Source: an uncultured Pseudokineococcus sp. (GTDB lineage Bacteria; Actinomycetota; Actinomycetes; Actinomycetales; Quadrisphaeraceae). Taken from it: a stretch of 64,000 nt of DNA. Every line of letters starts with the position of its first letter. Within the stretch, counting starts at the first letter, position 1. The stretch spans positions 62,001 through 126,000 of the forward strand of contig NZ_CANMAA010000005.1 of NCBI RefSeq assembly GCF_947495735.1. Direction: 5' to 3'. This document shows, in pieces, positions 10,523 through 14,616 of this stretch. Under the pieces are notes generated by a model. The model was not told the origin of the DNA and did no database searches. It saw nothing but the letters and a program-made list of their open reading frames with translations. Both the position numbers and the translations under genes were made by a program.

Positions 10523-10536
10523 GTTCCACGTGGAAC
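10523..10536. promoter_or_regulatory. parS centromere site 1
   Basis: GTTCCACGTGGAAC is a perfect 14-bp palindrome between the GNAT gene and the small gene after parB. It matches the parS pattern (canonical GTTTCACGTGAAAC) with symmetric T-to-C and A-to-G changes. Two identical copies lie inside parB and parA. Confidence 0.9.
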
Positions 10537-10585: not shown

Positions 10586-10780
10586 TCAGCGGGGACGCCG
10601 AGGGTCGTACACGGCCTCACGGCGGCGGGGCTGCAGCAGCGCACCGACGAACGCCGCCGCTGCGCCGAGGGAGAGACCCAGGCCCACGACGGCCACCGTG
10701 TGACGGCGGCGCGCCCGCTCGAGGTCCAGCGGTGCCGGCGCGGCCAGCGGGCGCGGGCGCGGGCGCGGGCGGGACCTCAC
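10586..10780 (-). CDS. Small single-span membrane protein downstream of parB
   Basis: A 64-residue protein whose GTG start overlaps the parB stop by four bases (GTGA), which argues for a real, translationally coupled gene. It has a basic N-terminus ([10 protein letters not shown]), one membrane helix (about [20 protein letters not shown]) and a basic C-terminus. I recognise no family. It could be an origin- or ParB-associated anchor, but that is speculation from position. Confidence 0.55.
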
Positions 10781-11895
10781 GCCGCGTCGCCCTCGTCCGC
10801 GCCCGAGACCCCCTCCACGGCGAGCACGCCGAGGATGCGCTCGAGGTCCTCGCGCCCGGCGAACTCCACCGTCATCCGCCCCTTGCGGCGACCGACGCTG
10901 ATGGTGACCCGGGTCTCCAGGCGCTCGGACAGCGCCGACGCCACCGCCTCGGCGCGCTCGTCCCGCGGCGCGGCGCTGAGGCGACGACGGGGCTTGGCGA
11001 CGCCCTCGCCCGTCGCCACCGCCTCCTCGGTGGACCGGACGGACAGGCCCTCCGCGACGACGCGCTGCGCGAGCCTCTCCATCGCGGCGGCGTCGGGCAG
11101 ACCGAGCAGGGCACGCGCGTGGCCCGCTGACAGCACGCCCGCAGCCAGGCGGCGCTGCACCAGCGGCGGCAGCTTCAGGAGCCTCAGCGTGTTGGAGATC
11201 TGCGGCCGTGACCGGCCGATCCGCCGTGCGAGCTCGTCGTGGGTGCACCCGAAGTCCTCGAGCAGCTGACCGTAGGCCGCCGCCTCCTCCAGGGGGTTGA
11301 GCTGGCTCCGGTGCAGGTTCTCCAGCAGCGCGTCGCGCAGGAGGACGTCGTCGTCCGTGCCGCGGATGATCGCCGGCACGACCGCCAGGCCGGCGCGCTG
11401 ACTGGCCCGCCACCGCCGCTCGCCCATGACGAGCTCGTAGCGGGGCCCGCTCCCGTCCTCGCTCGGCACGGGACGCACGACCACCGGCTGGAGCACCCCG
11501 ACCTCGCGGATGGAGTGCTCCAGCTCGGCGAGCTCGTCCTCGTCGAAGACCTGGCGGGGCTGCCGGGGGTTCGCCCGGACGGCGTCCACGGGGATCTCCG
11601 CGAGCCGGACGCCCGGGACCTCGACCAGGTCGTCCCCCTCGGCCCGACGGGGCGACCGGTCCTGGGCCCCCACGCCGCCGGACGCCGCACCGTCCTCGGC
11701 CGCCGGGACGGCCGCTCGGTCCGCGGCGTCGCTGTCAGGCTCGGCCGCCGAGCCGTTCCACGTGGAACCGGCGTCCTCGACGGGGGTCGCCGGTCGCGCC
11801 ACCGGGAAGAAGACGTCGTGCGGGCGCTCACCCTCGGGTGCCGTGGGGATGAGAGCTCCCAGGCCGCGCCCGAGGCCCCGTCGTCGTTCCGTCAT
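10777..11895 (-). CDS. parB: Chromosome partitioning protein ParB
   Basis: A 372-residue CTPase/DNA-binding protein that loads at parS and spreads. It starts with the typical [17 protein letters not shown]. An acidic linker follows, then the ParB/Srx domain: [12 protein letters not shown] is the CTP/arginine-rich motif near residue 165, and [17 protein letters not shown] follows. The HTH that reads parS is at about 225-250 ([19 protein letters not shown]), and the C-terminal dimerisation domain ends the protein. A parS site lies inside its own N-terminal coding region. parA lies 35 bases upstream on the same strand. Confidence 0.97.
11755..11768. promoter_or_regulatory. parS centromere site 2 (inside parB)
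   Basis: The perfect palindrome GTTCCACGTGGAAC lies within the 5' part of parB, where it is translated as part of GSTWNGS in the disordered linker. Confidence 0.9.
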
Positions 11896-11930: not shown

Positions 11931-13880
11931 TCAGCGCGCGCTAGGGGCCGGGGCGAACCGCTCGGCCAGCTCCTGCGCCGCGGCGAGGTACGACAGGGCC
12001 CCACTGGACCCAGGGTCGTAGGTCATCACGGTCTGCCCGTAGGAGGGAGCCTCCGACACGCGGACAGATCGGGGCACCGTCGTGGAGAGCACCGAGGAGG
12101 GGAAGTGCTCCCGCACCTCGTCAGCGACCTGCGCGGCCAGACGCGTCCTCGCGTCGTACATGGTGAGCAAGATGCTCGAGACGTGGAGCGCCGGGTTGAG
12201 GTGGCGGGTGATCATGTCGATGTTCTTGAGGAGCTGGCTCAGCCCCTCCAACGCGTAGTACTCGCACTGGATGGGGATGAGGACCTCCTCGGCGCACACG
12301 AACGCGTTGAGCGTCAGCAGGCCGAGGCTCGGGGGGCAGTCGACGAAGACGTAGTCGGGGACCGGCGAGCCGGTCGCCGCGCACCGCTCCAGGTACCCCC
12401 GCACGGCGCCGCGCAGCCGCGTCTCGCGGGCGACCATCGACACCAGCTCGATCTCCGCGCCGGCGAGGTCGATCGTGGCGGGAGCGCACAGCAGCCCGGG
12501 CACGTCCGGGCACCGCTGCAGGACGTCCTCGAGCGGCACCTCGTCGACGAGGACGTCGTACAGGCCGGGCACCTCGGCGTGGTGGTCCACGCCCAGGGCC
12601 GTGGACGCGTTGCCCTGGGGGTCGCTGTCCAGGACGACGACGCGCAGCCCCGCCTGGGCGAGCGCCGCCGCGATGTTCACCGTGGTCGTCGTCTTGCCGA
12701 CGCCGCCCTTCTGGTTGGCGACCGTCAGCACGCGCGTGCGCTCGGGCGGTGCCAGGGGCCGGCCGCTCAGGGCGATCCGACGACGGGCGTCCTCCGCGAC
12801 CGCACGCGCCAGCGGGGTCGAGTCGTCGACCTCGGGCAGCGAGCCCGCCACCTCCGCCCGCTGCGCGTCGTCTCCACCGGCGTGGACCGGGAGGCCTCCG
12901 CGGACGGGCGGGTCGGCGTCCACCGCCGCCACCGGCAGGTCGTCGTCGACCGAGGGCGCACCGGGGTTGAGCGAGGCGTCAGCGTCCACCGGTGCGGTGG
13001 GGAGGTCTTCGTCGGTCGGGTCGGCGTCCACCCGCGCGGCCGGGGCGTCCTCGTCGGTCGAGGCAGCCGCTACCGCCACGGCGGGGAGGTCTTCGTCGGT
13101 CGGGTCCGCGTCCGCCCGCGCGGCCGGGCCGTCTTCATCGGTCGGGTGGCCGCTGCTCCCACGGGCACCGCTGAGCTGGGCCTGGCCAGCGTCCTCGACC
13201 GACGCGGTGTCTCGGACGTGCGCAGCGAGGGACGTCCCCTCCGTGAGCTCGGTGGTGCCCGGGAGGTCGGCAGCGTCGTCGCGGACCTCTGGCTCCGGCT
13301 CGGCCTCCCGCTGCGGGACCCTCGCGTCCTCAGTGACCAGGTGCTCGAGGGCCGAGGGCGAGCCCGTCGAGGACTGCTCGCCGACTGAGCGGTCCTCGAG
13401 CGGGGCGACCACCGTGACCTGGTCCACGGGAGCCCGCTCCTCGAGAGCGCTCTCCTCGGGAACCCGGTCCTCGGGAAGCCCGCCCTCGACAGCCCGGCCC
13501 TCGGCCGCCTCATCCTCAGGAGCCTGGTCCTCGGCGGGGCTGTCCCCTGTGGTCAGGTCCACCAGAGCGGTGTCCTCAGGAGCGAGGTCTCCGCGCGAGT
13601 CGACCTCGGTGACCTGACCCCCGGCACCAGGACCCCCGCCCGGGAGCGGAGAGGCCGTCATGTCGCCGCGGACGTCCGCCGAGGGCTTCTCGCCGTCGGG
13701 CTCCGCTGAGCGGGGAGCCCCGTCCGCCGCTGGCACAGCGACCACGGGAACCATCCGCCGCTGAGGCGCGGCCGGCACCGTCTCGACGTCTGTTCCACGT
13801 GGAACCGCGGGCCACCCGAGCAGGCTGTCGAGCCGTCCGCTCTCGGAGCCGGGCCACCCCGGTGCCGTCGTCGTGCGCAC
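11931..13880 (-). CDS. parA: Chromosome partitioning ATPase ParA with very long acidic N-terminal extension
   Basis: The C-terminal ~266 residues are a complete ParA/Soj ATPase: deviant Walker [12 protein letters not shown], switch [11 protein letters not shown], Walker [11 protein letters not shown], and the DNA-binding C-terminal half. The family is usually 250-330 residues, occasionally longer in actinomycetes. Here about 380 residues precede the core, acidic and disordered, with repeats of the type [13 protein letters not shown] (28-residue period). The peptide AVPRGTD near the start is the translation of a parS site, a known arrangement in actinomycete parA genes, which supports a start upstream of it. 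GTG at 13880 is preferred because GGGAGG lies about ten bases upstream; GTG at 13919 has no ribosome site. Confidence 0.93.
13001..13148 (-). repeat. 84-bp imperfect tandem repeat inside parA
   Basis: A block starting with GGAGGT at 13001 recurs at 13085, giving an 84-base (28-codon) period; the second copy is partial. It encodes the TDED(L/A)P...VDAD repeats of the acidic extension, and further degenerate copies flank it. The in-frame period means the repeat could expand or contract without breaking ParA. Confidence 0.7.
13792..13805. promoter_or_regulatory. parS centromere site 3 (inside parA)
   Basis: A third perfect GTTCCACGTGGAAC palindrome, in the 5' end of parA, translated as VPRGT. 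It lies about 2.0 kb from site 2 and 3.3 kb from site 1. Confidence 0.9.
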
Positions 13881-13944
13881 CAGCGCCCCGCCTCCCTCTC
13901 GTCGCCGCTCGTCCTGCACGCCACGCGCCGGCGAGAGGGGCGGA

Positions 13945-14616
13945 TCAGCCGCGTCGCCGCGCCTGCGCGCTGCGGTGCCCGACCCTAGCCCGCACCACGG
14001 TGGTGGCCTCGTCGAGCATCCCCACCCCGCAAGACAGCACCTCGGGCTCGAGGAGGCCGACGCGGCGCAGCGCCTCGGCGTGCTCCTCCACCTCAGCCGC
14101 CGCCGATCCCCCCTTGATGGCCAGCAGCTGTCCCCCGGGGCTGACGAGGGGAGCGCACCAGCGCGCGAGGCGGTCCAGCGGCGCCACCGCTCGTGACGTC
14201 ACGACGTCCGCCGTCTCGTGACCGGCCAGCTCCTCGGCGCGCGCCCGGACGACTCGCACGCGCAGGGGAGGACCGACCGAGGCCTCGTCCACCGCGGCCA
14301 CGGCGTGCTCTAGCCACCGCACCCGGCGCAGGGCCGAGTCGACGAGGACCAGCTCGAGGTCGGGCCGCGCCATCGCCAGCACCAGGCCGGGCAGTCCGGC
14401 GCCGCTGCCCACGTCGAGGACCACGGCCCCCTCGGGCACCAGCTCGGCGACCACGGCGCAGTTGAGCACGTGCCGGGTCCACAGGCGAGGCACCTCGCGC
14501 GGGCCGATGACCCCGCGCACGACTCCCTCACCGGCGAGCTCCCGCACGAGCAGGCGCGCCTGCGCGAGCCCCGGGCCCAGGACGCGCTCGGTGACGTCCG
14601 GCTCGGGCGGCAGCAC
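13945..14616 (-). CDS. rsmG: 16S rRNA (guanine-N7)-methyltransferase RsmG
   Basis: A 223-residue SAM-dependent methyltransferase (GidB) predicted to methylate G527 of 16S rRNA. Visible features are the RHVLNCAVVAEL motif near residue 48, the SAM-binding loop VLDVGSGAGLPGLVLA near 68-83, the acidic VLVDSALRRVRWL and the TSRAVAPLDRL motif. Length is normal. The C-terminal tail is short and basic. It sits between jag and parA as in other actinomycetes. Loss of this gene gives low-level streptomycin resistance in other bacteria; the gene looks intact here. Confidence 0.95.
   Translation of the reverse strand: MLPPEPDVTERVLGPGLAQARLLVRELAGEGVVRGVIGPREVPRLWTRHVLNCAVVAELVPEGAVVLDVGSGAGLPGLVLAMARPDLELVLVDSALRRVRWLEHAVAAVDEASVGPPLRVRVVRARAEELAGHETADVVTSRAVAPLDRLARWCAPLVSPGGQLLAIKGGSAAAEVEEHAEALRRVGLLEPEVLSCGVGMLDEATTVVRARVGHRSAQARRRG

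Follow-up and report, generated by a model that had tools for sequence, protein, structure and literature searches.

The ParA protein encoded in the window (the whole stretch of 64,000 nucleotides analysed) carries at its extreme N terminus a peptide with two GWP motifs, and many families keep this peptide immediately before the ParA core, as part of ParA or in a small frame that overlaps its presumed start. Our preferred reading of the tail headed by this peptide is a docking module borne by a spacer, more than a disordered block; we see about an even chance that the tip acts as a bivalent docking module, tethered by an acidic disordered spacer, whose partner most likely belongs to the segregation machine. 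The window carries an rsmG-parA-parB segment, and the relatives found by sequence are actinobacteria. The features of the segment are located as follows.

13945..14616, minus strand: rsmG/gidB, directly upstream of parA (GidB, E 9.9e-43)
13891..13896, minus strand: Shine-Dalgarno-like GGGAGG, 10 nt 5' of the GTG start
11931..13880, minus strand: parA, 649 aa, GTG start (reading frame, Pfam match, AlphaFold, aligned starts)
13851..13862, minus strand: first motif, PGWP, degenerate, ParA residues 7-10 (the relatives' first GLGWP aligns with it)
13809..13823, minus strand: second motif, LLGWP, residues 20-24 (alignment with relatives)
13792..13805, no strand: perfect parS GTTCCACGTGGAAC, in-frame VPRGT, residues 26-30 of ParA (sequence match)
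12873..13790, minus strand: acidic disordered linker, residues 31-336 (AlphaFold, charge, pN/pS)
13417..13534, minus strand: second repeat array, 15/30/45 bp (lag analysis)
12978..13147, minus strand: tandem repeat of 42 bp (14 residues) with a higher-order period of 84 bp (lag identity)
12735..12872, minus strand: conserved helical collar, residues 337-382 (AlphaFold helices; pN/pS 0.00-0.31)
11931..12734, minus strand: ParA ATPase core (KGGVGKT), residues 383-649 plus stop (AAA_31, E 1.6e-50)
10777..11895, minus strand: parB (Pfam ParB_N, HTH_ParB, ParB_C)
11755..11768, no strand: perfect parS within parB (sequence match)
10523..10536, no strand: perfect parS 3' of parB (sequence match)

The frame is open without interruption over 11931-13919 of the minus strand (662 aa). 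The GTG at 13880, with GGGAGG upstream, is the best start and gives a protein of 649 aa, and the GTG at 13919 is without a Shine-Dalgarno-like site; in two genus mates the aligned GTG follows GGGAGG or AGGAGG, and the sequence 5' of it is unconserved. In Pfam, AAA_31 matches the 662-aa frame from residue 396, equivalent to residue 383 of the 649-aa protein. An AlphaFold model, built on a 28-sequence alignment, gives residues 1-330 a pLDDT of 30-48 (ten-residue means) and zero secondary structure, places helices at 337-346 and 356-371, and is confident from about residue 337 through the core. The protein is thus laid out as an N-terminal tip, a 306-residue acidic linker, the collar and the core, with some 330-336 disordered residues ahead of the collar. 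The earlier note had confined the core to the last ~266 residues; the folded part comes to about 313 residues, because the two helices precede the confident core. Its proposals of a long N-terminal extension and of a disordered block both held, the extension being backed by the open frame, by the start with its GGGAGG and by the four genus members that keep the frame. Three genus mates were found, with identical architecture and linkers of 186-226 residues, which excludes a single-genome assembly artefact as the source of the extension, one of the outcomes that the note had named as refuting it. N-terminal length is a variable feature and does not define the ParA family.

The conserved element of the tip consists of two G-[LVI]-G-W-P motifs that lie 12-29 residues apart in 83 cases. 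We defined the module as two G-[LVI]-G-W-P-like motifs at most 40 residues apart, upstream of the ParA core; the ParA of the window has the twin by the relaxed rule only (motif 1 PGWP, motif 2 LLGWP), directly before the translated parS. A strict twin lies in the ParA frame upstream of 52 of 223 distinct ParA cores and in none of 200 residue-shuffle replicates. Within the last 1500 nt, it occurs in the ParA frame at 49 of 221 loci, in frame +1 at 5 and in frame +2 at 0 (2 of the 223 loci were omitted from this count, having too little upstream sequence); codon shuffling of the loci of the 175 genomes counted below (20 replicates) yielded, per replicate, no strict twins, 0.05 fused-relaxed ones and 0.4 separate-relaxed ones. 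Across 130 motif copies, Leu is written with 6 codons, Gly with 4 and Pro with 4, and it is therefore the peptide that is kept; this synonymous variation rules out the GWP codons as a DNA motif. A start codon and a loosely defined ribosome site lie within 45 aa upstream in 72 of the 83 cases, with a median of 9 aa before the motif. The tail had been read as a disordered block, and it is indeed disordered; its conserved part is the tip, and on the twin GWP the earlier reading was silent.

A profile of the motif, run over 39 genomes, reached E <1e-5 at five parA loci only among the matches listed. Of the weaker matches, 12 were inspected and put down to chance or simple repeat; the strongest of the 12, L253 (G007, E 0.001), does contain two ALGWP, in a tandem repeat at the end of its frame. 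The profile also scores known twin loci poorly (G013 E 0.116, G034 E 0.038), and since it misses known copies, absence of the motif elsewhere in these genomes is not proven. A Pfam scan of three small proteins and the window tail returned nothing over cut-off (DUF5789, at E 0.072, fell below its own), and no description of the twin motif or the small frame was found in the titles and abstract openings of the open-licence literature. Three Actinomadura loci (L076, L078, L079) have GPELGRP or GPGLGRP at the ParA tip, which may be a GWP motif that has decayed, Arg having replaced Trp.

Of 175 genomes, 83 have the twin shortly before the ParA core, 61 fused and 22 separate; this fraction is no prevalence, since the genomes (one locus each) were hand-picked from 457 to spread families and lean to long frames. 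They divide into 44 fused-strict, 17 fused-relaxed, 18 separate-strict and 4 separate-relaxed genomes, 2 without a recognised frame and 90 with none, five of which are truncated at the upstream end and could be false negatives. The fused-relaxed class takes in all four genomes of the window's genus. The five frame +1 twins are each a small separate reading frame directly before parA. This separate form was found in one order, which was then searched further (11 of 12 genomes in family f44, 10 of 13 in f47, 1 of 5 in f48), and occurs at L072, L156, L214, L221, L239, L278, L280-L286, L292-L298, L301, L302 and L304. The separate frames are 28-87 aa long, taking the nearest start codon, and overlap the presumed parA start by ATGA (18 of 22) or GTGA (4 of 22), the overlapping start codon lying in the ParA frame in all 22. 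A metagenome assembly, L072, has the same separate overlapping frame, and its nearest ParA is in f44.

Twins were found in 20 of 45 sampled families. The window's own family has them in the four genomes of the genus, and they are absent from the 7 other loci of the family; the 90 genomes lacking a twin, these 7 among them, mean that ParA can work without the module. Other classes of the phylum gave 0 twins in 20 readable loci (91 genomes searched for ParA, 21 loci fetched). Family f34 likewise has the twin in 0 of 9 loci, its N-terminal frames resembling by eye those of named Streptomyces loci; the Streptomyces and f34 loci (L039-L049, L155-L163) have their own conserved N-terminal stretch (like EESESLRSDANIAGPMTDPVPGPRTE) instead of GWP. 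When presence and absence of the twin are mapped on a quick, unrooted tree of 173 ParA rows, 25 changes are required, at least 13 of them forced by well-supported branches, which means that the module was repeatedly lost or gained. The earlier note had ParA gaining its tail between an ancestral N terminus and the core. The position stands: the twin GWP and the translated parS make up an older N-terminal piece, and the block separates that piece from the core; but the module is unfused and free of a linker in one order, so growth of a tail on ParA is not the whole story.

Because the peptide, whether fused or in an overlapping frame, directly precedes the ParA core and was not clearly found elsewhere in a limited whole-genome search, it appears to be a working part of the segregation machine. 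Its separate frame is apparently translationally coupled to parA, and the partner is therefore most likely to be sought within that machine; the candidates are ParA, ParB or a polar scaffold. A separate peptide has no tether by which to recruit ParA, so contact with ParA or with ParA-ParB is the first choice, and two like motifs fit a bivalent contact. In such a mechanism, the two GWP motifs beside the in-frame parS at the extreme N terminus of ParA would form a docking module, each motif docking on a partner surface and the pair giving avidity; the partner would be ParA or the ParA-ParB interface. A split module would meet it in trans and a fused one in cis, and the spacer would mainly set the reach. 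Single-chain folding and column association are weak tests for docking on ParA: AlphaFold gave no docking of the tip on the core in the window ParA, nor in the short-linker ParA L091, where the motifs stayed at a pLDDT of ~40, and none of 17 ParA core column/residue candidates clearly tracked the motif over 10 independent pairs (5 rows with a cut upstream end dropped), the best, Val near residue 437, going in the same direction in 4.1 pairs and in the opposite direction in 0.5 (averages).

Recruitment of ParA by the N-terminal module to a DivIVA-type polar scaffold is our second choice after direct contact, and we consider it rather unlikely. The available text of PMC9298525 and PMC10714820 describes a T3A variant of Mycobacterium smegmatis ParA that loses DivIVA binding, and the genome of the window has a DivIVA family match, as do 17 of the 18 relatives that were searched with it. 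However, according to the same part of PMC9298525, residues 1-20 of M. smegmatis ParA grafted on Rhodobacter sphaeroides ParA are not sufficient, and two Mycolicibacterium loci (L080, L101) are without the GWP motif; a separate peptide, moreover, could not recruit ParA unless it also bound ParA. For Scy of Streptomyces, the accessible portion of PMC3718342 maps ParA binding to E250V, in the C-terminal domain. As regards the DivIVA gene itself, the match at G000:C6:168366-168542 and those of the genus mates (E 4.2e-9 to 2.4e-8) are weaker than those of the family's other genera (1.6e-13 to 3.8e-12); the genus mate G001 (580 contigs) gave no match.

Compared with the tip, the linker is the part that changes. 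The 306 residues that follow VPRGT bear a net charge of -0.17 per residue and contain 16.7% W/C/F/I/Y/V/L/M, in line with the acidic, hydrophobic-poor extension anticipated from the sequence. The 84-bp (28-residue) repeat proposed earlier is also there, resolved as 2 x 42 bp: self-identity within 12978-13147 reaches 83% at lag 84, against 73% at lag 42, and a 14-residue unit thus recurs within a 28-residue higher order. These repeats are a local, fast-changing feature. Six pairs among the four genomes of the genus gave pN/pS values of 0.69-1.12 for tip plus linker, 0.00-0.31 for the collar and 0.16-0.25 for the core, with poor alignments for the distant pairs; the closest pair, whose alignment is safest, gave 1.12, 0.00 and 0.25, respectively. 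Within this one genus the linker drifts almost neutrally and is not the conserved part. The spacer also expands by tandem duplication, and its length differs between strains and families, with 306 residues in the window, 186-226 in the genus mates and 23-589 in 59 of the 61 fused genomes (the other two, with linkers under 20 residues, were left out of the length and charge counts).

Linker sequence and length drift, and the charge is kept. Net-negative linkers occur in 57 of the 59 fused genomes (median -0.10 per residue); for the same DNA the value is +0.25 in frame +1, +0.17 in frame +2 and about +0.11 per residue after base shuffling, and 55 of the 59 real linkers lie more than 2 SD below their own shuffles, so that base composition does not explain the acidity. 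This constancy would favour the acidic extension as a functional part in itself, serving as a charged brush that would weaken binding to the nucleoid or shape the gradient of ParA. We regard that as improbable, because linkers shrink to 23 residues, their sequence evolves near neutrality and the separate forms have none. In addition, the ParB linker in the window, a single control, is as acidic (-0.11 per residue against the ParA-linker median of -0.10); charge may therefore be usual for disordered parts here and nothing special to ParA.

The peptide VPRGT that precedes the block is, as had been proposed, translated parS; the perfect sites of the window are all GTTCCACGTGGAAC, and a search of the genome for TGTTTCACGTGAAACA with as many as 2 mismatches gave no site. 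That the region is kept at the DNA level as a home for parS, its translation being incidental, would agree with two counts: 136 of 173 loci have a perfect parS in the 1500 nt that precede the P-loop, and 209 of 315 parS sites, read in the ParA frame, translate to V[SP]R[EG]T, up to six within one frame. It is nevertheless very improbable, since the GWP codons vary synonymously with the frame locked, and since the separate peptides of f47 and the tails seen in f35 keep GWP without a translated parS. Five loci (L177-L179, L190, L191) have 4-6 such in-frame parS copies ahead of the ParA core. Two loci from another class of the phylum (L321, L322; f61) have more than 500 open residues before the core, with translated parS and no GWP twin, perhaps another long ParA extension. 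That the extension is untranslated and ParA starts near the core can be practically dismissed: the pN/pS near 1 of tip and linker would allow it, but the conserved N-terminal peptide and its ribosome site lie in the core frame in many families, and the frame stays open in all four genus members.

The textbook view of ParABS has two proteins and one DNA site. That one peptide recurs just ahead of the ParA core, in either form, across 20 of the 45 families sampled in a single class points to a component or anchor not yet accounted for. With a probability we would put somewhat below one half, the small twin-GLGWP protein is an undescribed third protein of ParABS in a large part of the actinobacteria, which would bind ParA or the ParA-ParB complex bivalently and tune its cycle, separate in one order and fused through an acidic spacer of variable length in others. 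Its two tryptophans offer a concrete handle on how actinobacterial ParA finds its cellular place, and small unannotated frames ahead of parA become worth reading.

The window protein is a chromosomal ParA with a new N-terminal module and not a new kind of system. It has the Walker A motif (KGGVGKT) and a confident ParA/MinD ATPase core, an adjoining parB, parS sites and GidB, R3H and 60KD_IMP neighbours; a neighbourhood of rsmG, R3H and YidC is typical near oriC. It thus shares with chromosomal ParA/Soj of ParABS the Walker A core, neighbouring parB, parS and rsmG-parA-parB order, and differs by 382 pre-core residues, the twin GWP module and the acidic spacer. For actinobacterial ParA, the available text of PMC9298525 gives an extension of only 20-25 aa. 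M. smegmatis ParA is likewise actinobacterial, and its N-terminal region reportedly matters for its partner DivIVA (PMC9298525, as far as excerpted); the Mycolicibacterium loci L080 and L101 have an in-frame VSRET like the translated parS of the window but no GWP motif. Streptomyces ParA, with Scy and ParJ, likewise has partners beyond ParB (PMC3718342, accessible portion); its Scy site is C-terminal, at E250V, whereas the module of the window ParA lies at the N terminus.
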